64,000 nucleotides of DNA from Desulfosporosinus youngiae DSM 17734 (GTDB lineage Bacteria > Bacillota > Desulfitobacteriia > Desulfitobacteriales > Desulfitobacteriaceae): the NCBI RefSeq assembly GCF_000244895.1, contig NZ_CM001441.1, forward strand, positions 4,368,198 through 4,432,197, given 5' to 3'. A model generated the notes under the pieces. The model was not told the origin of the DNA and searched no databases. It saw nothing but the letters and a program-made list of their open reading frames with translations. Shown one piece after another: positions 24,634 through 57,113 of this stretch (position 1 is the stretch's first letter; each line of letters starts with the position of its first letter). Position numbers and translations under genes: made by a program.

Positions 24634-26112
24634 TTATTCTCTTACCGTGCCATACTCTTTTTCCGCTTCCTCCACGATACGCCGAATGGTTTGCTTAACG
24701 TCTTCAGCCAGGGGCATTGGCGTATGGTTATTGAGGATATAATTAGCTTCTGCGTAGGCGCGGTCCGTCAAATTAGTCTCCCCTTCAAGTACCCAGGTTT
24801 CCCGCATAGATCTGTCGAACAGTTTTGTATGGGACTGCTCCCGTCTAAAATGATCAAAGGTGTGCTCATGGCTGACAAATTCTCCGCCGGGACCAATCTC
24901 CTTGATTATGTCCACAGCCATGTTTTCGTCAGTTACCTTGATTCCGCCAATAACCTTCCTGATCATTTTGAAGATTTCGTTATCCATGACAAATTGAGCA
25001 AAGTCAAAGGTCATTCCCATGTCCAGCATACCCGCTCCGTAGATCAAATTCGCGCCGCCCTGGGCTGCGAGGAGACCTGTCAGAGTTTTTTCATGAGCTG
25101 CTTGGGCATCGGGTATTTTGCTGTCTGCCTATCCGCCGGCTACAAAACTGGGCAGATTATAATATTGAGCCATTCTGGCTACCGACGCGCTGATCATCCC
25201 TAATTCCGGTGAACCCACAGGCGCCGTAGTATGCCGCATATCCATGATCGTCGTCGAACACCCGTAAATGCAGGGCGCTCCTTTGCAGGACAACTGACTG
25301 AGAATAATGGCGCTCAATACCTCCGCATTATGGGTGACCAAGGTTCCCGCCAGGGTCACAGGGGATGTCGCGCCCGCCAGGGCCATAGAAATAATGTTAA
25401 CCGGAATTCCCGCTCGCGCAGCCTCAATTATCACATCCGTGCATTCCGGAATCAGCTTGAGCAGACTGGTCGGGCAAACGTTAAAACTGATAAGAGGTCT
25501 TTCCTTCAATTTAGCACGACTGCCTGCCACCGCTGCCGCCATCTCAATTAATTTGCGGGCATTGCTCACCCCGTCTGCGCCAATGAAAAAGTGTTTGCTG
25601 GTGTTAGGGAAGATCGCCTCCGCATTATGCAGCGCCTGAACCGGTCCCGGATAATCCTGGGCTACCACCGCCCGATAGCTGATATCCATTTCCGAAAGAT
25701 AGTCGCTCATTTTTGCCGCATTAGCCACATCCTGCTTAGTGCTGCGGCGAAACTTTCTGTTAACCGGGTCGATAACGTTAACCCCTTCACCGAAATTAAC
25801 AAATCCCACCCGGTTGCTTTCTAAAATATAATCTTTCTTGGGGTCCCTGGCTGCCAGCAAAATACTGCTCGGTGCGGAGCGTACCGCCTCCTCGACAATA
25901 TAGGGAGGGATTTTCACTATGTCCGAGCCTGGATCCAGGGTACATCCGGCAGAGCAAAATATCTCCTGGGCTTCCTTGCTGTCCACCCGCACGCCTACAT
26001 GCTGCAACACATCGAGAGTCGAACAGTGAATAGCGTAAAGCTCATCCTGTGAAAGAACATCAACTCCAAAACCGCCCGTCATGGTAAATCTGGCATGTGC
26101 ATTTCTTGACAT
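24634..26112 (-). CDS. mttB: Trimethylamine methyltransferase MttB with in-frame amber (pyrrolysine)
   Basis: MttB transfers a methyl group from trimethylamine to its corrinoid protein. Translation from ATG 26112 (GGAGGT 8 bases upstream) reaches TAG at 25131-25129 after LPSFVAGG and continues in the same frame as [20 protein letters not shown] to a TGA-type end at 24634. Reading TAG as pyrrolysine gives 492 residues with Pyl at 328, the usual length and position of MttB. The sequence past the TAG is conserved MttB ([20 protein letters not shown]). First gene of the island, with a sigma-54 promoter. Confidence 0.95.
25129..25131 (-). other. Amber codon decoded as pyrrolysine in mttB
   Basis: The minus-strand codon is TAG, flanked by SFVAGG and ADSKIPDAQ, exactly where methylamine methyltransferases carry pyrrolysine. 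164 further conserved codons follow, which would not be kept if TAG ended the protein. Confidence 0.93.
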
Positions 26113-35302: not shown

Positions 35303-36043
35303 TTAGTAATTAGCACATAGGCTTGGGTTAAGAAACGTACAGGCGTTTTCATATTCCTTACCGTATTTCGAAAAGTTCATTTTATAGAGTTTCAGATTGG
35401 ATAACGTCCGGGATAACCAGATCGGTGCTGCACTGGATAGTTTAACTTCCATCAAATACTGTCCTTTTTCTAATAATGGGTCTCCGAAACTGGCCGTTTT
35501 CAAACACAAGTCGTGTCTTCTGGTTAAGATATCGTAATCAAAGGTTATCCGAAAATCCCTATCCTCTTTGCCGAAAAACGCCAGTCGTTTATAACTAATG
35601 TAAGTCGCCGGCTGAACATCATTGCGACTTAAAAAGTATTCAATTTCGTTGGCAACCTGTAGATTGAGCTTGTTCGTAGTCGTTGGGCATTTCCCTGATC
35701 GAATAAAATCACAGGCATCCTTTAAAGGTAAGATTGCACGCCTCTTATTGACAATTCCGCCGATTTTCTTTTTTAGTTCTAAAAACACCTCGTCGTCAAG
35801 TGAGCCCGGGATAGTATAGCTTCGCAGGCGAAGCTTTTCTTTATAGTAGGGTTTGGCAATTGAATGCCGGATTAGATTATTGTCGTGGGTATCATAATAA
35901 ATATTGTAAATGCTGTACTCCTTTCCGTTTTGACAATGAGCATCGGGAACCATGTATTCTAACAATCGAGGGATAAGCGTATCAAATTGTGCTTGTAATA
36001 GCATGAATTTGATTTCATAACGCTTGAAGGTTGTTATTGCCAT
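35303..36043 (-). CDS. VTC-domain (polyphosphate polymerase-like) protein
   Basis: The 246-residue protein has the VTC fold: FKRYEIKFMLLQAQFDTLIP, YSIYNIYYDTHDNNLIRHSI, the basic strand YKEKLRLRSY, then FLELKKKIGGIVNKRRAILP and the late YLMEVKLSSAAPIWLS. The tunnel-lining Arg/Lys/Glu residues of polyphosphate-making VTC4 are recognisable. In bacteria such proteins sit with DUF4956 and often CotH; polyphosphate synthesis is an inference. AAGGAGG precedes ATG 36043. A CTGA array lies 80 bp upstream. Confidence 0.85.
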   Translation of the reverse strand: MAITTFKRYEIKFMLLQAQFDTLIPRLLEYMVPDAHCQNGKEYSIYNIYYDTHDNNLIRHSIAKPYYKEKLRLRSYTIPGSLDDEVFLELKKKIGGIVNKRRAILPLKDACDFIRSGKCPTTTNKLNLQVANEIEYFLSRNDVQPATYISYKRLAFFGKEDRDFRITFDYDILTRRHDLCLKTASFGDPLLEKGQYLMEVKLSSAAPIWLSRTLSNLKLYKMNFSKYGKEYENACTFLNPSLCANY

Positions 36044-36124
36044 TTTGCATTCCTCCTTAGAAGCCTTTGATCGGCCTCGCTTACATTCATCCATTGTGCT
36101 CGATTTCAAGTATATGATGGTTTC

Positions 36125-36150
36125 CTGAAATTCAACTGATGGTTAACTGA
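36125..36150. promoter_or_regulatory. CTGA direct repeats at 11-bp period upstream of the VTC operon
   Basis: CTGA occurs at 36125, 36136 and 36147 on the plus strand, exactly 11 bp apart, as in OmpR/PhoB-type binding sites. The same pattern occurs upstream of the neighbouring response regulator gene. Confidence 0.55.
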
Positions 36151-36176
36151 ATGTTTGCTGAAACTTCTTGGCGGAG

Positions 36177-36550
36177 TAGCCTGCCATGCCGCTGCTGCGG
36201 CACCGGCAGAGAATGAAAATGGGGTCGCTCGGGCCGGGCAGCTTCGCCACATCCGTGCAAGATTAGTTAATTCGTGCGAAGACAGTGTCTTCGTACCGCA
36301 GCATTCCGAGGTTCGCCCACTCGCCGATGCGGGACTTCGCCAAACCTCCGGGTAGTACCTGATGTGAACCTGTGGCTCCGTCTTCCCGCACCGGCTTGTG
36401 GGCTTTTACCGCCTCTCCATGCAATGGGTTCGCTTCTGTGGCGAAGCTGCCCTGCTTGCGGGTCTGAAGATTTTTCTGTATGTCTTTAGGGTCTTTTTCA
36501 GAGTTAGCCGACCATGCCGTTGTCGCAGCACCAGCAGAGGATGAAAATGA
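36177..36550. repeat. Structured non-coding repeat, copy 1
   Basis: A roughly 370-bp element closely resembles copy 2 at 56544-56880. Near-identical 45-bp sequences (TAGCC.GCCATGCCG ... AGCAGAGGATGAAAATG) flank a core that folds: GGGCAGCTTCGCCAC (36236-36250) pairs perfectly with 36438-36452, and inside it 36315-36334 pairs with 36384-36403. No reading frame is conserved. Copy 1 has a 39-bp insertion near 36257-36295. It lies between the VTC operon and the two-component system. Confidence 0.85.
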
Positions 36551-36570
36551 TTGTCTTCCTTTTCAGGGTG

Positions 36571-36611
36571 AAAAAAATTATAGCCCATTTGAGTAAGCTC
36601 GAATGGGCTAT
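36571..36611 (-). terminator. Terminator of the two-component system operon
   Basis: On the minus strand ATAGCCCATT and AATGGGCTAT form a 10-bp stem followed by AATTTTTTT. It lies downstream of the histidine kinase stop at 36735. Confidence 0.8.
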
Positions 36612-36690
36612 TGGAAAACGCGGCTGGTGTGCCTATGAAGGCACTCTCTTCGCATGTGTTAACTTTTTTGAAGACTTCATCAGTAAGAGT

Positions 36691-36728
36691 GTCAGGGGGA
36701 CGGGGTTATGACAATAGCCCCGATCCCC
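36691..36728. repeat. REP-like palindrome GGGGACGGGG
   Basis: GGGGACGGGGTTAT and ATAGCCCCGATCCCC form a long near-perfect hairpin right behind the histidine kinase gene. The left 17 bases recur inverted at 57742-57758. Confidence 0.55.
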
Positions 36729-36734
36729 ACGACA

Positions 36735-38213
36735 CTACTTGATAGCGTTCGCTGTTGCAGGCCTTACCGGAATCCATACATAAAAGGCACTTCCTTCACC
36801 TGGGGAACTTTCTACGCGAATGAGCCCTCCGTGGAGTTCTACGATCGTTTTTGTAATTGCCAGTCCCAGTCCCGCACCGCCATATTTGCGGGTTCGGGAG
36901 GGATCGCTCCGGTAAAAGCGGTTAAACAGATGCGGCAAATGCTCTTTTCCAATGCCGGGGCCGTTATCTCTAACAACGAGTTCCAGACCTCCGTTCATAG
37001 GTTCCAGGGTAATGTTAATCTGTCCTTTGTTCGCATCGGTATGCTGAACTGCATTATGGAACAGATTCAGGATGATTTGCTTAAGTTTATCCTCATCAAA
37101 CCAACACCTTGCCGGTGCAGTAAGCCGCAAGTTCACGGTGCGGTTTCCGGCCAACAACCTTAATTGAGGCTCCATCTCCTTGATGAGAACCTCTACGTCT
37201 CCCTCTTCCGGATTAATGGTTGGAGAACGATCCAGCTTGGCAAGGAGCAAGAGGTCCTGTACCAGCTTTTTCATACGCTCGGATTCCGTAAGCATGCTCC
37301 GCAGGGATTTGTCGAGCTTGTCCGGTTGATTCATAGCTCCACGCAGCAGCACCTCCAAGAATCCATGGATCGAGGTCAAGGGAGTTCTAAGCTCGTGGGA
37401 AGCGTCCGCGACAAAGCGGCGCATTTGCTCTTTAGCCTCTTTTTCGGCCTCAAAGGATGTCTCCAGTCTTTCAAGCATTCCGTTAAAGGAGAAAGCCAAA
37501 CGGTCGATCTCGACCTGACCCTGTTCCGGGGGAAAACGTTCCTGAAGATTTCCTGCGTTAATCTTTTCTACGGTTTTGGTCATATTGGATAAAGGCTCCA
37601 AGGTTTTTCGCAGCACGGAGATCAAGGCGAACATGCCTGCAATTAAGGCCAGGAAAGCCAGGGTCATGAAAATAAGCAGTTGACGGATTAACCCATCCTT
37701 TAAAGGCTTAGTGCTTAAGCTAACCTGGATCAGTCCGGTATTGTGAAATTTGTTCCCGATGGGTTGAAGTACAACCAACTGCTCTCCCACATCAGGCTGG
37801 TTTACTACTTTGTAAGTCAATTTTTGTTTGGAACTTAGTGCCTTTTGGTAGTCTTCTTTAGTAAGTTGAGGCGTATTTCCAAGCTGGTGATCAGCAAGGT
37901 CATTAGGCAGGTCTAAGAAGTTACCCTGTGCATCGATAAAACTTATTCTGGTATCAGGCATAAAAAACACCGGGAAACGACCAGGAATATTGGACTCAAC
38001 GCTTCGCACCGCCTCTTCCCATAAATCAGGAGGAGCCGATAAAATCTGGTTTCTAATGCTGGAAGCCCGGTTACTGTAAGTTACCTCGCGCATAAAAAGG
38101 TACTGAAAAAGACCAATCACTGCCAAAAGGATTGCCATTACCAGCAAAGACCGGGATAAGAGCTGGAAAAGCAGCGAGTTTGGTACGATGTAGCTCCGGA
38201 TGAGTTTTTTCAT
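36735..38213 (-). CDS. Membrane sensor histidine kinase
   Basis: The 492-residue kinase has two membrane helices (about residues 17-38 and 180-203) around an extracytoplasmic sensor domain, a HAMP domain, the HisKA box with phospho-acceptor in RRFVADASHELRTPLTSIHG, and the ATPase N (LFHNAVQHTD), G1 (VRDNGPGIG), F and G2 (GGAGLGLAI) boxes. The ATG overlaps the response regulator stop (ATGA), so they form one operon. The signal is unknown. Confidence 0.94.
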   Translation of the reverse strand: MKKLIRSYIVPNSLLFQLLSRSLLVMAILLAVIGLFQYLFMREVTYSNRASSIRNQILSAPPDLWEEAVRSVESNIPGRFPVFFMPDTRISFIDAQGNFLDLPNDLADHQLGNTPQLTKEDYQKALSSKQKLTYKVVNQPDVGEQLVVLQPIGNKFHNTGLIQVSLSTKPLKDGLIRQLLIFMTLAFLALIAGMFALISVLRKTLEPLSNMTKTVEKINAGNLQERFPPEQGQVEIDRLAFSFNGMLERLETSFEAEKEAKEQMRRFVADASHELRTPLTSIHGFLEVLLRGAMNQPDKLDKSLRSMLTESERMKKLVQDLLLLAKLDRSPTINPEEGDVEVLIKEMEPQLRLLAGNRTVNLRLTAPARCWFDEDKLKQIILNLFHNAVQHTDANKGQINITLEPMNGGLELVVRDNGPGIGKEHLPHLFNRFYRSDPSRTRKYGGAGLGLAITKTIVELHGGLIRVESSPGEGSAFYVWIPVRPATANAIK

Positions 38214-41498: not shown

Positions 41499-42758
41499 TT
41501 AATCTTCCAACCCCGAGAAATCTAACGTAGCGAAGAGATCTTCAAGCGTCTCAGCCCGTCGGATCATTTCCACACTGCCGTCCGTCTTGAGGAGCAGCTC
41601 TGCCGAGCGTAATTTACCATTATAGTTAAATCCCATAGCATGGCCATGGGCCCCGGCATCATGGATGACGACAATATCTCCAATATCCATCTTAGGCAGC
41701 GCTCTATCTATGGCAAATTTATCGTTATTCTCACACAGACCTCCTGTGACATCATAAATCTGATCACACGGCCAATCCTCTTTTCCCATCACTGTAATGT
41801 GGTGATAGGCACCATAGAGAGCAGGACGCATTAAGTTGGCCATGCAGGCATCTAAACCAACATAATTTTTGTAGATTTCTTTTTTATGCAGCACCTTGGC
41901 AACCAAATAACCATAGGGACCCAAGATCATCCGTCCGCTTTCCAGAGAGATCTTTAATGGGTCCAAGCCTTTATCAACAATCAGTTGATCGTAGGCCTCC
42001 TTGATCCCCTTACCTATCATCTCAAGGCTAACCGGCTCTTGATCCGGACGATAAGGAATACCAATCCCTCCGCCGAAATTAACTAATTCAATTTTGATCC
42101 CTAGCTTATCGTAGATCTCTCCTATTAGCTTGAACATCATAGTGGCCGTCTCAATAAAATAGTTAGGATCAAGCTCATTCGAAATAATCATCGTGTGGAT
42201 TCCGAAGCGTTCGACTCCTTTTTCCCGGGCAATTTGATAGGCTTCGAAAATTTGAGATTTGGTTAAACCATATTTAGCATCAGCAGGTTTCCCGATAATC
42301 GCATTTCCGCCCTCGCGCAGATCACCAGGATTATAACGGAAAGAGATAATTTCAGGCATTCCTGCACTTTTCTCCAAAAAATCAATATGAGTAATATCAT
42401 CGAGATTAATGATTGCACCTAATTCTTTCGCCTTTTGATATTCTTCAGCAGGGGTATTATTAGAAGAAAACATAATATTTTCGTCAAGAATCCGAGCCTT
42501 TTCCGCCAGAATAAGTTCTGCGATCGAACTGCAATCCGCTCCGAATCCTTCCTCCCGCAAGATTTTAAGGATATAGGGGTTCGGTGTTGCTTTGACAGCA
42601 AAGTATTCTTTGAACTCAGGAGCCCAACTGAATGCTTCTATTAATCTACGGGCATTTTTCCGAATGGCCTGTTCATCATAAATATGAAATGGTGAACCAT
42701 ACTGATCGATCATTGTCTCTAACTGCTGCTTGCTAAAAGGTAATGTTTTTTCTGCCAC
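41499..42758 (-). CDS. lysA: Diaminopimelate decarboxylase
   Basis: The 419-residue fold-type III PLP enzyme makes lysine from meso-diaminopimelate. The PLP lysine lies in EYFAVKATPNPYILKIL, the phosphate-binding loop in VNFGGGIGIPY, the basic substrate region in LESGRMILGPYGYLV and the second-subunit cysteine in TGGLCENNDKFA. A lysine riboswitch and terminator upstream confirm the role. An IS lies 26 bp behind the stop codon. Confidence 0.93.
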   Translation of the reverse strand: MAEKTLPFSKQQLETMIDQYGSPFHIYDEQAIRKNARRLIEAFSWAPEFKEYFAVKATPNPYILKILREEGFGADCSSIAELILAEKARILDENIMFSSNNTPAEEYQKAKELGAIINLDDITHIDFLEKSAGMPEIISFRYNPGDLREGGNAIIGKPADAKYGLTKSQIFEAYQIAREKGVERFGIHTMIISNELDPNYFIETATMMFKLIGEIYDKLGIKIELVNFGGGIGIPYRPDQEPVSLEMIGKGIKEAYDQLIVDKGLDPLKISLESGRMILGPYGYLVAKVLHKKEIYKNYVGLDACMANLMRPALYGAYHHITVMGKEDWPCDQIYDVTGGLCENNDKFAIDRALPKMDIGDIVVIHDAGAHGHAMGFNYNGKLRSAELLLKTDGSVEMIRRAETLEDLFATLDFSGLED

Positions 42759-42832: not shown

Positions 42833-42850
42833 AAATATGCAAGCGAATTT

Positions 42851-43022
42851 TAAGTGATAGTGCTCCACCCAATGACTAGGTGACAGTTATGTACCTATTA
42901 AATACATAACCAGTAAAAGTCCTTATGCCACAGCCTTTTACTTCGGCGATTATTCCTTTCGGCACACTTCATCGCTGGATTGCTTGGTGTACTTACTCTT
43001 AATAACCGCACCTCTATCTAAT
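42851..43022 (-). ncRNA. Lysine riboswitch (L box)
   Basis: The minus strand shows the conserved lysine aptamer pieces in order: AGATAGAGGTGCG, ATTAAGAGTA, GTGTGCCGAAAGGAATAATC, CGCCGAAG, GGCTGTGGCATAAGGAC, and the closing GGTGGAGCACTATC, which pairs with the first. It precedes a terminator and lysA, so lysine should stop transcription of lysA. Confidence 0.93.
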
Positions 43023-43152
43023 TTATCATTGGTTTATTATGCAATAAAGGCTTGATAAAAGTCAAGTAACTCGTTTAGAGATGGGTTAATAAAAATAAGC
43101 GGCAATCTTGTAGCATCTCTCTCGCAAAGTAAGGGTAAACCTGTCTGGAAGT

Positions 43153-43210: not shown

Positions 43211-45637
43211 TTAGTCAGGCAAATCCGTCTTAGCATAATCCATTGCTGATTCAGGGCTCGAGCCGGCACTGTTTGCCGCTCTTACTTTGTAATAATAGGT
43301 TGTATCTGCCCAGAGGCCTGTATTCGTGTAACTGGTGGTGGAAACTGTTGCAATATGAGAGTAGGTTCCGGAAGAGGAAGTGGCACCGTAAACATAATAG
43401 GATGTGGCATTACTGACTGAATCCCAGGTTAGATTAATTTGACTGGAACTCACCGCCGTTACCTCTAACCCTGTCGGAGCCGCTGGTGTATCGTAATCAT
43501 CATAATCTTCTTCATCAATGTTGATAAGAATACTGTTGGGTACTACAACTATTCCTCCAAAAATAACTTCTTTCTTAATACTCCTAATTTTGCTCTTAAA
43601 GAAGTTTATGGTAACCGGATCTACAGGATCACTGACTAAAAACACGGGGGAATTTGTTATAGAAGCTAAGGCGGCCCCGGCTAGGGCATCGGCATAGTTT
43701 TCCCCGGTTGATTCATAACATGTGCTGAAATCAAGTTCATCAGCAAATTCTTTAATAATACTAATATTTGTATCATACCTGGTATTTCCGCTTAATCTTC
43801 TGGGAGAGGGAAGTTGTTTAAGGACATTATCGCTGATGATCCCTGTCCCTCCCACTACATAGGTGCTTTGGGCATTTTTTTCTAAATACCCTTTGATGTT
43901 TTCAGGTAATTTATCTTTGGGGGTGAGTAAAATAGGCATTCCTTTCATGGCAGCTATGGGCGCAATGGATAAAGCATCGGGAAAGGTCTCTCCACTGGCA
44001 ATCACCGCTTGGTCAAATTCCCCGATTGCCTGGGCAATTTTGATCGATGTGTCATATTTATCAGTCCCAGCGATCCTGGTTACCCCTATCCCCAGGTCTT
44101 TTATACTTTGCTCAACTCCGGAGGATATAATACCGGTTCCACCGATGATAATTACTTTTTTCACCTTTAAACGGACGAGCTGAGTCTTTGTTTGTTCGTG
44201 CAAGATATTCTTAGTTGTTAGTAATAAAGGAGCGTTATATTTTTGGGCAAGAGGAGCGCTGCATAAGGCATCCGCGAAGTTCTCCCCACTTACGATAACA
44301 GCATAGTAAGAAGTGATCCATCCAGACTTAGCAACTTCTGCAGAGGTTCCATACATATCCTCGCCGGCTAAGCGATCAGACTGGATATCCGAGGAAGGTT
44401 CTGTAGGAATGGTGCCATCTGTCTTAGCAGTGATTGCATAAGCACTTGAGGAATAGCCGCTGCTGCTCCAGTTGTTTACAGCAGTGACTTTGTAGTAATA
44501 AGTAGTATTCGGCGATAAGCCGGTATCGGTATAGTTCGAAGTAGTTGTTGTCGAGATCTTGGAGTATGTTCCTGAAGAAGCCGTCGAGCGATATACGTAA
44601 TAGGATGTTGCTTCACTCACGGAATCCCAATCCAGATAGATCCTGCTGGAACTCTCGGCCCTTGCGGTCAGATCTGTTGGAGCGGATAGATCTGACTCGT
44701 CAGATCTATCTGTCGTTGCATAATCTCTAGAAGAATATTCACTTGTTTTTGAATTCCTGACTGCCTTGACCTTATAGTAATAAGTGGTGTCTGATTTTAA
44801 ATCACTGTCTGTATATTTTGAAGATGTGGCTGTCCCAATCTTAGAGTAGGTGCCCGACGAAGTTGTTGATCTGTACACATAATAGGATGTTGCATTACTG
44901 ACCGAATCCCAATCCAGATAGATTTCGCTGGAGCTTTCAGCGCTGGCCCTAAGGTCTGTTGGTGCTGACAATGAGTCATCTTCATCAGAATCCAGGGTCT
45001 TGGCATAGTCCTTAGAGGAATATTCACTCGTTTTTGAGTTCCTAACTGTCTTGACCTTATAGTAATAAGTGGTGTCTGATTCTAAATCACTGTCTGTATA
45101 GCGCGAGGATGTGGCTGTCCCAATCTTAGAGTAGGTGCCCGACGAAGTTGTTGATCTGTATACATAATAAGATGTTGCATTGCTGACCGAATCCCAATCC
45201 AGATAGATTTCACTGGAGCTTTCCGCGGTGGCGGTGAGGCCGGTTGGTGCTGACAATGAGTCATCTTCATCTGAATCCAGAGTAGTTTCATAGGTTCTAG
45301 AAGAGTAGGCACTTGTTGTTCCAGAACTGTTTACTGAGACTACCTTGTAATAATAGGTGGTTTCCGATTTCAAATTGGAGTCTGTATAACGAGAGGTTGT
45401 GGTTGTGGCGATCTTGAAATAAGTACCTGACGATGATGTTGCCCTATAGACATAATAGGATGCTGCATCACTTACAGAATCCCAATCCAAGTAAATTTCG
45501 CTGGAGCTTTCGGCGCTGGCCGTAAGATCAGTCGGTGCTGAAGGAATACTCGCCGCAAGCGTAACTTTCGGAACTATTAGGACAGCAAAAAAGAAACATA
45601 GTACTAAAGTTAATAATCTCAGACTGTTTTTTTTCAT
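43211..45637 (-). CDS. Secreted protein with five fibronectin III domains and three cell-wall-binding repeats
   Basis: The 808-residue protein has a signal peptide ending near KVTLAAS, four N-terminal fibronectin III domains (about residues 33-125, 130-220, 225-310, 315-410), three cell-wall-binding repeat 2 units (about 425-690; motifs SGENFADALCSAPLAQ, IIGGTGIISSGVEQ, YVVGGTGIISDNV) and a fifth fibronectin III domain at the end. The binding repeats attach non-covalently to the wall. The domain copies are nearly identical in DNA at 285-bp period. AGGAGGT precedes ATG. Confidence 0.93.
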   Translation of the reverse strand: MKKNSLRLLTLVLCFFFAVLIVPKVTLAASIPSAPTDLTASAESSSEIYLDWDSVSDAASYYVYRATSSSGTYFKIATTTTSRYTDSNLKSETTYYYKVVSVNSSGTTSAYSSRTYETTLDSDEDDSLSAPTGLTATAESSSEIYLDWDSVSNATSYYVYRSTTSSGTYSKIGTATSSRYTDSDLESDTTYYYKVKTVRNSKTSEYSSKDYAKTLDSDEDDSLSAPTDLRASAESSSEIYLDWDSVSNATSYYVYRSTTSSGTYSKIGTATSSKYTDSDLKSDTTYYYKVKAVRNSKTSEYSSRDYATTDRSDESDLSAPTDLTARAESSSRIYLDWDSVSEATSYYVYRSTASSGTYSKISTTTTSNYTDTGLSPNTTYYYKVTAVNNWSSSGYSSSAYAITAKTDGTIPTEPSSDIQSDRLAGEDMYGTSAEVAKSGWITSYYAVIVSGENFADALCSAPLAQKYNAPLLLTTKNILHEQTKTQLVRLKVKKVIIIGGTGIISSGVEQSIKDLGIGVTRIAGTDKYDTSIKIAQAIGEFDQAVIASGETFPDALSIAPIAAMKGMPILLTPKDKLPENIKGYLEKNAQSTYVVGGTGIISDNVLKQLPSPRRLSGNTRYDTNISIIKEFADELDFSTCYESTGENYADALAGAALASITNSPVFLVSDPVDPVTINFFKSKIRSIKKEVIFGGIVVVPNSILINIDEEDYDDYDTPAAPTGLEVTAVSSSQINLTWDSVSNATSYYVYGATSSSGTYSHIATVSTTSYTNTGLWADTTYYYKVRAANSAGSSPESAMDYAKTDLPD

Positions 45638-46961: not shown

Positions 46962-49205
46962 ATGATTAAACCACTGAGGAAAACGTTCTTAAGCTTATTC
47001 AGCGTACTCTTTCTTATAGGAACGATCCTTCCGGCCTCAGTCGTTTCCTATGCAAAACCGGCATTTGCCGCGGATGCACCTGTGCAAACCAGAGGTGCCA
47101 GTTTATCCACCGTATCTGCAGGTATGTTTCATAGTTTAACTCTTAGTAGTGATGGGACCGTATGGGCTTGGGGAGATAATTCAGAGGGACAGCTAGGTAA
47201 TAACCAAAGTGAGCTTCCGGATAGTTCGACTCCTGTCCAAGCAAGCGATTTGACGAACGTTGTCGCCGTTGCCGCAGGGGGTGCCCATAGTTTGGCCTTG
47301 AAAAACGATGGAACCGTCTGGGGCTGGGGAAATAATGAATTCGGACAGGCCGGATTCGGAAAGATAGAACTAATCGCCGGCGGACCTGACTTCTATATGC
47401 CCGAACAATATTTAAAATCCTATACGCCCCTTCAAGTTCAAGGGCTTACTGATGTGATCGCTATCGCAGCAGGAATGGACTATAGTTTGGCCTTAAAGGC
47501 GGACGGAACCATTTGGTCCTGGGGAAGTAGCCAAAACGGACAGCTTGGAAACCCTTCGGGAAAGGGACTCTTTACGAATATCCCAGCAAAGGTCGTAGTT
47601 GATACTAATGGCCAGGCATTAACCGGGATCACTAAGATTTCTGCCGGAAGTGCCTTTGCTTTAGCCCTTAAAGACGATGGCACTGTCTGGACCTGGGGAG
47701 GCCTGCTCGTAGATGAGGAAGGAGTTCACAATGTGACATCTGCAGCTATACAGGTACACTCCCTAACAGATGTCATTAATATTAGTGCCGGTTATAATCA
47801 CAGCCTTGCTTTAAAAAGCGATGGTACGGTTTGGGGCTGGGGAAAGAATGATCTATTTCAACTTGGAGATCGCGATACCCAACAAAGTTGGAATACACCG
47901 CTTCAGATCAGCGGGATTAATAATGTGCATTCTATTGTAGCCGGGAGTTATCTTAGTCTCGTCTTAAAAACAGACGGTACCGTATGGTCCTGGGGAGGTA
48001 ACTTGTGGGGGCAGCTCGGCGATGCGGTTCCCTTTGAACAAGAGCCCTTGTCCATGAATCCGGTACAAGTTAATGAATTAACTAATGCTACAGCCCTTGC
48101 TTCAGGGTTAGGGTTTGTTATTGCCCGTCAAAGTGGGGGGACTATCTGGGCTTGGGGAGCCAATAGTGAGGGACAGCTTGGAAACAACACGTTTGGCGGA
48201 CCGGTTGTCACCGGAGATATTTTTAATCCGGACGGAACAATCATATCCGGTGTTAATTCACCGGTTAAAAGTTTAATCCAGGCAGGTTCCTTCGAAACTA
48301 CTTCCTTTACCAGATTAGCCGGTCTTGATGCCATGGAAACGTCGGTAAAAATATCCCGGGAAGGCTGGCCTGATAGGGCTTCGACAGCTATTCTGGCAAC
48401 CGTTGTCAATTTTCCGGACGCACTGGCCGCTGCGCCTTTAGCTCATCAATATGATGCTCCGGTTCTGCTCACTGAGAGCAAACAGCTGACACCCAGTGTC
48501 GAACAGGAACTTGGCCGCTTAAAACCTTCCAAAATCATCATTGTCGGCGGAACAGCGGTTGTTTCCCAGGAGATAGAGGATCTTCTTAAGCAAACCTATG
48601 AGGTTACACGTTTATCCGGATATGATCAGTATGAAACTGCGGCGGAAATTGCCGCCGACCTCCATACTATGAATCCCGAAATCTCTGGGAAAGCCGTAAT
48701 TGCCTACGGCGGAAATTTCCCGGACGCCTTAGCTATCTCCTCATTAGCCGCATATCAAGGAATCCCTATCTTGCTTACAGAACAGGCACAGCTTCCTGCA
48801 GCCACTAAAACTGCTCTTCAAGACCTCAATGTCACGGAAACCATCATTGTCGGCGGAACTGCAGTCGTCAGTTCACAGGTTGAAGCCCAGTTAAATGGTG
48901 TAAAACGCTATGCCGGTATTGACCAGTATCAAACCGGGATCGCTATTGCTAAGGGGTTAGGGAATAACTTTGATACTATTTACCTGGCAACAGGGGATAA
49001 CTTCCCGGATGCTCTGGCGGGTTCGGCATTGGCTGCCCGGACCGGAAGTCCCATCATTTTGGTGGATAAATATCTGAACAGCACCGCCGTTACAAATTTC
49101 TTGATAGACCACAACCTTGCTGTTACGGATGCTGCTATTTTAGGAGGAACCGCGGTAATAACTCCAGCGGTCTGGGAGAAAATCACACGTTTCTTTATGT
49201 TATAA
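46962..49205 (+). CDS. Secreted RCC1-repeat protein with three cell-wall-binding repeats
   Basis: The 747-residue protein has a signal peptide (up to about AKPAFAADAP), seven RCC1-type propeller repeats (for example AGMFHSLTLSSDGTVWAWGD, GGAHSLALKNDGTVWGWG) over residues 50-425, and three cell-wall-binding repeat 2 units (about 450-745; VNFPDALAAAPLAHQ, IIVGGTAVVSQEIE, TGDNFPDALAGSALAAR). A wall-anchored propeller of unknown ligand. AAAGGAG precedes ATG. It shares its wall-anchor type with the fibronectin protein at 43.2 kb. Confidence 0.93.
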   Translation: MIKPLRKTFLSLFSVLFLIGTILPASVVSYAKPAFAADAPVQTRGASLSTVSAGMFHSLTLSSDGTVWAWGDNSEGQLGNNQSELPDSSTPVQASDLTNVVAVAAGGAHSLALKNDGTVWGWGNNEFGQAGFGKIELIAGGPDFYMPEQYLKSYTPLQVQGLTDVIAIAAGMDYSLALKADGTIWSWGSSQNGQLGNPSGKGLFTNIPAKVVVDTNGQALTGITKISAGSAFALALKDDGTVWTWGGLLVDEEGVHNVTSAAIQVHSLTDVINISAGYNHSLALKSDGTVWGWGKNDLFQLGDRDTQQSWNTPLQISGINNVHSIVAGSYLSLVLKTDGTVWSWGGNLWGQLGDAVPFEQEPLSMNPVQVNELTNATALASGLGFVIARQSGGTIWAWGANSEGQLGNNTFGGPVVTGDIFNPDGTIISGVNSPVKSLIQAGSFETTSFTRLAGLDAMETSVKISREGWPDRASTAILATVVNFPDALAAAPLAHQYDAPVLLTESKQLTPSVEQELGRLKPSKIIIVGGTAVVSQEIEDLLKQTYEVTRLSGYDQYETAAEIAADLHTMNPEISGKAVIAYGGNFPDALAISSLAAYQGIPILLTEQAQLPAATKTALQDLNVTETIIVGGTAVVSSQVEAQLNGVKRYAGIDQYQTGIAIAKGLGNNFDTIYLATGDNFPDALAGSALAARTGSPIILVDKYLNSTAVTNFLIDHNLAVTDAAILGGTAVITPAVWEKITRFFML

Positions 49206-56484: not shown

Positions 56485-56880
56485 ATAGCCCTCCATGCCG
56501 CTGGCGCGGCACCATCTGACGATGAAAATGCGAGTCGTCTTTTGTAGCCTGCCATGCCGCTGATGCAACACCAGCAGAGGATGAAAATGAGAGCGCTCTC
56601 TGGTCGGGTAGCTTCGCCCACATCCGCTCACCGCAGCATTCCGAGGCTCACCCACTCGCCGGTGCGGGACTCCGCCAAACCTCCGGGTAATACCTTGTAA
56701 GATGTGAACCCGTGGCTCCGTCTCCCCGCACCGTCTTGTGGGCTTTTACTGCCTCTCCATGCAATGGGTTCGCTTCTGTGGACGAAGCTGCCCTGCTCGC
56801 GGGTCTGGGGATTATTCCGCATGTCTTTAGGGTCTTTTAATTTTTCGCCGTTAACGCAGCACCATCAGAAGATGAAAAAG
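56485..56880. repeat. Structured non-coding repeat, copy 2
   Basis: The core 56605-56795 matches copy 1 at about 85 percent by eye, including the outer stem (GGGTAGCTTCGCCCAC with GTGGACGAAGCTGCCC) and the inner stem (CCCACTCGCCGGTGCGGGA with CCCCGCACCGTCTTGTGGG). Flanking 45-bp units occur twice on the left (56485 and 56544) and in degraded form on the right (56845). Short frames through it are not conserved between copies. It fills the gap between allE and allA; the remaining 56299-57113 DNA shows no gene. Confidence 0.85.
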
Positions 56881-57113
56881 ATTCCACGAAGCCTTACCAG
56901 CCCCCCAAAGTTCTGCTTACATTCCCAACAAACTGGCTGAAGGAGCGCTTGTCTGCTAAGCTAAATGCCCGAGATCATCCAATTTAGAAAACTAGGATAA
57001 AGAATCATCTTCACTCTCATCAATAGTGGTAAAAGGATAATTCTCTAGAACGACTAATTATATATAGACACAACTGCCTTGCGAAACTGAAATTGAAAGG
57101 GGACATCTCTGAA

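Follow-up and report, generated by a model that had tools for sequence, protein, structure and literature searches.

What kind of sequence lies twice between genes in the 64,000-nucleotide stretch of the Desulfosporosinus youngiae DSM 17734 genome considered here (the window, C1:4368198-4432197 of a genome of one contig, 5.66 Mb): a structured RNA, a mobile element, or something of both? The first-pass annotation of this DNA described two intergenic copies of a structured repeat, near 36.2 and 56.5 kb, and both are confirmed at these places, where they occupy 36174-36566 and 56486-56882. The 36.2-kb copy is flanked by a VTC-domain gene and a histidine-kinase gene and slightly overshoots the end originally given for it (36550), reaching about 36566 (TTTTCAG); the 56.5-kb copy adjoins a cupin gene. 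The likeness of the copies had been put at about 85% by eye. Across the whole 374-bp query it is 76%, because a 39-nt module of the 36.2-kb copy is missing from the 56.5-kb copy; the three blocks common to both are 89, 92, and 95% alike. Chance is ruled out as the source of this likeness by the matching pieces that BLAST finds in the same genome (best non-self E 2.3e-128). The proposed paired arms are present, with an outer stem (GGGCAGCTTCG..CCACA / TGTGG..CGAAGCTGCCC) and inner stems, and the short flanking units are indeed direct repeats, as seen both in a repeat search (family D3) and by module BLAST. The parts of the two copies, in window coordinates, are as follows.

36174-36566, no strand assigned: whole element, 36.2-kb copy (GAGTAGCC... 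to ...TTTTCAG); ends judged by eye, from the alignment of copies and from the site that is empty in a sister genome.
36174-36221, plus strand: left hairpin unit U (AGTAGCC, CCATGCCGC..GCGGCACC, GAAAATG); module BLAST and repeat family D3.
36256-36294, plus strand: INS1, an optional 39-nt hairpin module (CGAAGACAGTGTCTTCG); module BLAST; missing from many copies, including the one at 56.5 kb.
36291-36439, minus strand (the favoured folded strand): structured core, 36.2-kb copy; covariance model R2, 105.1 bits, E 1.4e-24.
36343-36370, plus strand: near-invariant apical loop motif, 36.2-kb copy; exact pattern match, kept across genera.
36453-36498, plus strand: tail module T, from core to right unit, 36.2-kb copy; module BLAST.
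36494-36550, plus strand: right hairpin unit U, then the end TTTTCAG (36560-36566); module BLAST and aligned copy ends.
56486-56534, plus strand: additional hairpin unit U preceding the 56.5-kb copy; repeat search and module BLAST.
56544-56593, plus strand: left hairpin unit U, 56.5-kb copy; repeat search and module BLAST.
56624-56779, minus strand: structured core, 56.5-kb copy; R2, 112.2 bits, E 2.2e-26.
56794-56882, plus strand: tail T and truncated right unit U, 56.5-kb copy; module BLAST.
56854-56961, minus strand: remnant of a second repeat family, B, overlapping the right unit of the 56.5-kb copy; module BLAST.

The 28-nt apical motif, with up to three mismatches allowed, matches once in the window, in the 36.2-kb copy (against an average of 0.00 in 100 shuffles); at this position the 56.5-kb copy contains additional apical-loop bases, which suggest decay of its core. 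INS1, as it sits in the 36.2-kb copy, breaks one conserved internal loop. The window element has no transposase within it. No promoter-like or terminator-like site is found in 36000-36800, and consequently no RNA is predicted. (Other features of the window are a match to the Rfam family PYLIS_3, the pyrrolysine insertion element of mttB, at 25032-25131 on the minus strand with 93 bits; a Lysine riboswitch at 42850-43024, also on the minus strand, with 118.6 bits, upstream of a 419-aa ORF at 41499-42758; a 285-nt repeat at 44430-45569, in four tandem copies within an 808-aa ORF; and a degenerate 53-nt repeat at 47130-48004, in six copies within a 747-aa ORF.)

The two copies are members of a large family. 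When 36177-36550 is searched by BLASTN in the same genome, at least 68 pieces match among the best 40 of 143 candidates, and the stretches of this genome that were examined hold at least 55 element clusters. Cores without inserts (n = 34) have a median identity of 94% and a maximum of 98.9%. A full copy, read in plus orientation, consists of U, the left core half, the apical motif, the right core half, the tail T, and often a second U; the core is about 150 nt long and the whole window element about 390 bp. U itself is made of AGTAGCC and a small palindrome (GATGAAAA), and the right U often ends in TTTTTCAG. Many, but not all, left units begin with AGTAG or GGTAG, and the flank to their left often ends in TTT(Y)AG. 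Two optional hairpin modules, INS1 (39 nt) and INS2 (73 nt), are each found at a fixed internal place; nested hairpins, in which INS1 or other modules lie inside INS1 or INS2, are seen by eye in L153, L168, and L172. There are also tandem copies that share one U, for example at 805471-806046 and 3018598-3019178. Family B, which abuts the right unit in several copies, has a variant apical motif, contains INS1 in some copies, and is also recognised by the covariance model. By a simple rule, ORFs of 90-230 aa overlap 32 of the 55 elements, and we take these to be frames within the repeats. Counted by eye, the orientation of the copies relative to replication has no clear bias.

The family extends well beyond this genome. 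BLASTN against relatives finds matches in 25 of 40 genomes, own included, but this is an upper figure for the whole element, since several weak matches (e.g., L045 and L050-L053) cover an INS1-like hairpin only and the match at L048 looks like an unrelated palindrome. That INS1-like hairpin (CGAAGACACTGTCTTCG) lies within another repeat of other Desulfosporosinus genomes, one that begins with AAAACTTGGCT in L050-L053; this small module is therefore common to different repeat families. With covariance model R2, and no more than 42 candidates scored in any genome, matches are obtained in at least 54 of 73 genomes of the order, the window's own among them, which represent 16 of 22 genera. Of 398 genomes drawn from the phylum, at least 14 have matches (again counting the window's own), five of these lying outside the order; here at most seven candidates were scored per genome, with stricter filters. 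The 28-nt apical pattern is present in 83 stretches of named genomes, whose carriers are Desulfosporosinus, Peptococcaceae CEB3, Gracilibacter, Paradesulfitobacterium, Acididesulfobacillus, and a few MAGs. It occurs zero times in viral contigs, and a phage or plasmid repeat, for which there was no match, was rejected as a candidate. The other genera examined have compact elements of about 170-190 nt whose long arms vary, and these compact copies bear terminal inverted repeats (e.g., 18 nt, 89%, in G027). One core lies near an RVT_1 gene, at 3106-3255 of L364 (G007), and is the sole element among 55 Y1/RT loci.

A conserved fold had been proposed from the two window copies, and covariance models built with many copies bear it out, through compensating changes across genera. 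In an alignment of 18 cores from Desulfosporosinus genomes, from which the 56.5-kb copy, having been excised with incorrect ends, was excluded (A2), there are 42 consensus pairs, of which 11 have two-sided changes. Model R1, built from A2 and run on 25 chosen loci, gives 33 matches at E up to 0.1; it finds the compact elements of other genera, including some copies without the exact apical motif. (A cross-family MAFFT alignment, which gave a poor fold, was rejected and replaced by the model-based alignment.) When these 33 sequences are aligned (A3), 87.4% of the cells are paired, versus 65.9% after shuffling, and two-sided changes are seen at 33 of 42 pairs (269 cells versus 86.8 shuffled), figures to be read with the fact that A3 is fitted to R1, itself built from part of the same family, so that the structure is favoured. 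The covariation score of A3 is 0.489, versus 0.155 when shuffled and 0.05-0.07 when slid, and RNAalifold run on A3 predicts 28 pairs, 24 of which have a two-sided change. The own-genome copies considered alone (24 of 54) have no covariation (0 of 55 pairs). The unpaired positions, the apical motif foremost, are among the most conserved parts across genera; its segment GGUUCACAUCAGGUAUUACCCNGAGGUU (minus strand) is nearly invariant. By eye, minus-strand GCGAACC and GGUGAGC can form adjacent G.A and A.G mismatches, whose neighbours covary.

The evidence favours the minus strand, in window coordinates, as the strand whose fold matters, whether as RNA or as single-stranded DNA. In relatives' copies (n = 28 passing the family pattern, of 110 windows), G.U pairs number 48 on the minus strand versus 25 on the plus strand (p 0.0095, with copies that are not independent), and in 57 mixed own and relatives' cores they number 54 versus 39, one invariant column having been set aside. 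Among relatives' cores (32 of 86 windows), the minus strand has the lower minimum free energy in all 32 sequences and the lower z score in 27 of them. The own-genome copies (24 of 54) have no strand bias, with 18 G.U pairs on the minus strand versus 14 on the plus, and for the whole 36.2-kb element the energies are -166.2 (plus) versus -154.4 (minus), with similar z scores of -3.85 and -4.24. The strand also decides how an outer-stem difference between the window copies, GGGCAGC to GGGTAGC, is to be read: the first-pass annotation took it to keep pairing as a wobble, which holds for the plus strand (T.G), but on the favoured minus strand it is an A.C mismatch.

That the element is mobile and non-autonomous, one of the possibilities first raised for it, is supported by empty sites and by nine separately placed copies with an identical core. 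The sister genome G043 has no element in the orthologous interval between the VTC and kinase genes (flanks 83% identical). Nine of 14 further flank segments were located in G043; at eight of these loci both flanks align and none of the eight has an element, and the ninth, where a single flank aligns, was left out of the count. All nine testable sites (the window site and these eight) are therefore empty, one of them (3196583) with additional G043 sequence that does not align. At the empty sites the covariance model has no match, and the sole match that it gives within these loci is a partial one at the far edge of L294 (E 0.0045); genome-wide, G043 has 13 covariance-model copies. In another genome, G057, the nine copies examined have one identical 145-nt core and differing flanks, with 178 consecutive identical columns inside a block of about 240 bp that has four variable columns. 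By eye, these copies sit in degenerate TGACTCC heptamer arrays (L333-L341), in inverse orientation nearby in some, and the block ends in a U-like hairpin, so that the unit is not peculiar to Desulfosporosinus. No clear target duplication is seen by eye at the window's empty site or at the nine G057 copies, whose flanks are the repetitive heptamers.

A different kind of change is seen at a shared site. In six named genomes, an element lies at the same place after a lipoprotein gene (by eye), with differing stems and with INS1 or INS2 present in only some of the six. When 65 copies are compared, the best match of a shared-site copy is elsewhere in the same genome in two of the six cases (SRJS8, and hippei by 1 bit), at a different locus in a different genome in three, and the ortholog in one (by 3 bits). 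The shared-site copies are thus mostly not each other's closest relatives, which argues for replacement or module exchange rather than simple concerted evolution, and modules have been gained, lost, or exchanged there while the site itself stayed the same.

Insight into where the core comes from is provided by genomes other than that of the window, on which the following link rests. A block of about 2030 bp, present in three copies (99.9-100%) in G027, is an insertion sequence that encodes a 534-aa IS1182-family transposase; the core lies in the transposase leader, on the opposite strand, and its apical motif is found 144 nt in from the left end. Gracilibacter BRH_c7a has a second IS1182 (L198; L328 is the same locus, and the two are counted once) in which the apical motif is 142 nt from the left end. 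The two transposases are 37% identical to each other, and NF033551 confirms both as IS1182-type (449 bits for G027, 369 bits for L198). One IS1182 query finds a transposase beside the core at two independent places among 455 partly overlapping sequences; a third, weak IS1182-like match, at L368 of G003, has no core in that locus. That the core reached this position by chance insertion in both independent ISs is unlikely, although two cases are few. As these IS1182 elements are distantly related and yet agree in the core and in its position within the leader, the core most likely stems from a subgroup of IS1182-family transposons. Where solo copies match the leader of the Gracilibacter IS, the match starts at nt 74, 76, or 86, and the IS left terminus is absent; one L246 copy matches the G027 leader from nt 52. 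Since the former copies begin at least 73 nt inside the Gracilibacter leader, the usual recognition of IS1182 ends does not account for them. A search of 1120 neighbouring ORFs at 146 sites, with the 25 largest clusters inspected by eye, recognised no partner gene near most copies, and an autonomous version close to most copies was likewise rejected, none being seen in those clusters or at L103.

Several other explanations have to be set against a mobile family with a selected fold. It is possible, though unlikely, that the copies are internally deleted IS1182 elements (MITEs) moved in trans by the IS1182 DDE transposase. Besides the two IS1182 elements with the apical motif near their left end, this reading has in its favour that the L198 leader is matched by three copies for which no transposase was recognised, those of L246, L203, and L264 (92.6, 97.4, and 85.4% over 215, 154, and 171 nt, respectively), and that a hairpin resembling the right end of the G027 IS follows the core in L203, with a similar one in L246 by eye; yet these same three copies are without the IS left terminus, and by eye the Desulfosporosinus U is unlike IS1182 ends. 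A Y1 (HUH) transposase, for instance RAYT or the TnpA of IS200/IS605, might move the element as a composite of the REP/BIME kind, in which short hairpin units of one orientation bound each end and insertion takes place behind a TTYAG-like site with no target duplication; we consider this distinctly unlikely. The AGTAG start and small palindrome of U, the TTT(Y)AG flanks, the TTTTTCAG right ends, and the window's empty site would suit such a process, and Y1_Tnp matches occur in element-bearing genomes including G000 and G057: the window's genome has three (one short), G057 has one, and 24 of 29 genomes of the genus, own counted, have them. However, G003 and G051, both with many copies, have no Y1_Tnp match at E 0.001. 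BLAST with two versions of the unit finds it in none of the 55 Y1/RT loci, a search that recovered its positive controls but also missed the core-bearing L364 and so has limited reach; the covariance model matches in one of the 55, an RT locus. In addition, the GTAG is not kept in the G057 unit, and REP elements are not known to have a 150-nt conserved fold. A Y1 transposase as an obligatory mover was rejected, given the genomes that have many copies but no Y1_Tnp match and the Y1/RT loci in which no unit was found. RVT_1 (reverse transcriptase) is present in six of seven genomes examined, which does not discriminate, and an RT may be the mover.

The fold itself might be a by-product. Correction of quasi-palindromes by replication template switching is an established process, and the elements could be inert long palindromes whose arms stay complementary in this way while the fold is not selected. 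The own-genome copies, in which there is no compensatory change, would fit this, but the high conservation of unpaired positions, the apical motif above all, across genera and the better folding of one strand in relatives' cores make it decidedly improbable. A host cis-regulatory RNA or terminator is very improbable indeed. The copies are intergenic, some in the window's genome lie close to gene ends, and one site is common to six genomes; set against this are the mixed orientation to the flanking ORFs (n = 54: 22 opposite, 15 same, 10 convergent, 7 divergent), the empty sites of G043, and the lack of a terminator-like site around the 36.2-kb copy.

Taken together, these analyses make it somewhat more probable than otherwise that the window copies belong to a family of non-autonomous mobile elements that are related to an IS1182 leader and built on a folded single strand, either RNA or single-stranded DNA. 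The family has a high copy number, is present at sites that are empty in a sister genome, and is modular in make-up, and compensatory changes preserve the fold of its core. From this we infer that the fold, with its near-invariant apical motif, is the recognition target of a trans-acting mobility protein or of that protein's regulator. The core would have originated in an IS1182 transposon subgroup; a mobility protein acting in trans, or a regulator of one, would recognise the fold with its apical motif; copies would spread through the action of that protein; and modules would be swapped from one copy to another. IS1182 is implicated as the mover of the solo copies only through the shared core. 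A further step, to a new class of mobile structured RNA, that is, a selfish element transmitted as folded minus-strand RNA with a near-invariant apical loop, which came from an IS1182 antisense leader and spread through Bacillota genera independently of genes, is a tentative and rather unlikely one. Most dispersed repeats known from bacteria are short palindromes, or copies of an IS that have undergone deletion, and have no conserved interior. The elements described here are mobile and mostly gene-free, and compensatory change across genera preserves a fold inside them; the same fold also sits before an IS1182 transposase. The family makes it possible to test whether a mobile element is selected on its single-strand structure, and the covariance model marks many intergenic repeats in this order.

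How the family compares with known systems can be stated as follows. A catalogued Rfam RNA was rejected as a candidate, since no Rfam family reaches its gathering threshold at the element; in E-value mode there are sub-threshold matches only, the best with E 2.9 (RT-14, over the right unit) and E 3.2, which is chance level. The results named in the first-pass annotation as refuting its reading were not obtained, since no Rfam family scores above threshold, the copies are numerous, and the pairing is conserved in them. In the portions available of the literature searched, including PMC3733652 and PMC6006769, and in Rfam, no description of the repeat family was found; the main text of PMC3733652 has no words starting with Desulf, Clostridi, Peptococc, or Firmicutes. 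The family resembles REP, BIME, and REPIN sequences with their RAYT in being made of high-copy intergenic palindromes, with small hairpin units in tandem or in pairs and no gene inside, and, for many though not all units in the window's genome, in a GTAG-like 5' tag. It differs from them in its length of about 390 bp, its 150-nt covarying core, and its near-invariant apical motif, and from REP/RAYT in that G003 and G051, both complete genomes, carry it but have no Y1_Tnp match. HEARO and OMEGA RNAs and IS-linked structured leaders are likewise structured sequences tied to an IS that also occur as solo copies, but the transposase here is an IS1182 DDE enzyme rather than IscB, IsrB, or TnpB, and there is no gathering-score match in Rfam. 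BOX and other modular intergenic repeats have a similar mosaic of interchangeable modules, but the known ones differ in sequence and occur in other taxa. With MITEs, the family has in common that it is short, non-coding, multi-copy, and mobile, that compact copies in other genera have terminal inverted repeats, and that two IS1182 elements carry the core. It differs from MITEs in that terminal inverted repeats common with an autonomous element are not seen, the ends in the window's genome being direct units; in that no target duplication is clear by eye and copies matching the IS leader are without the IS end; and in that the conserved part is an internal folded domain rather than the ends.
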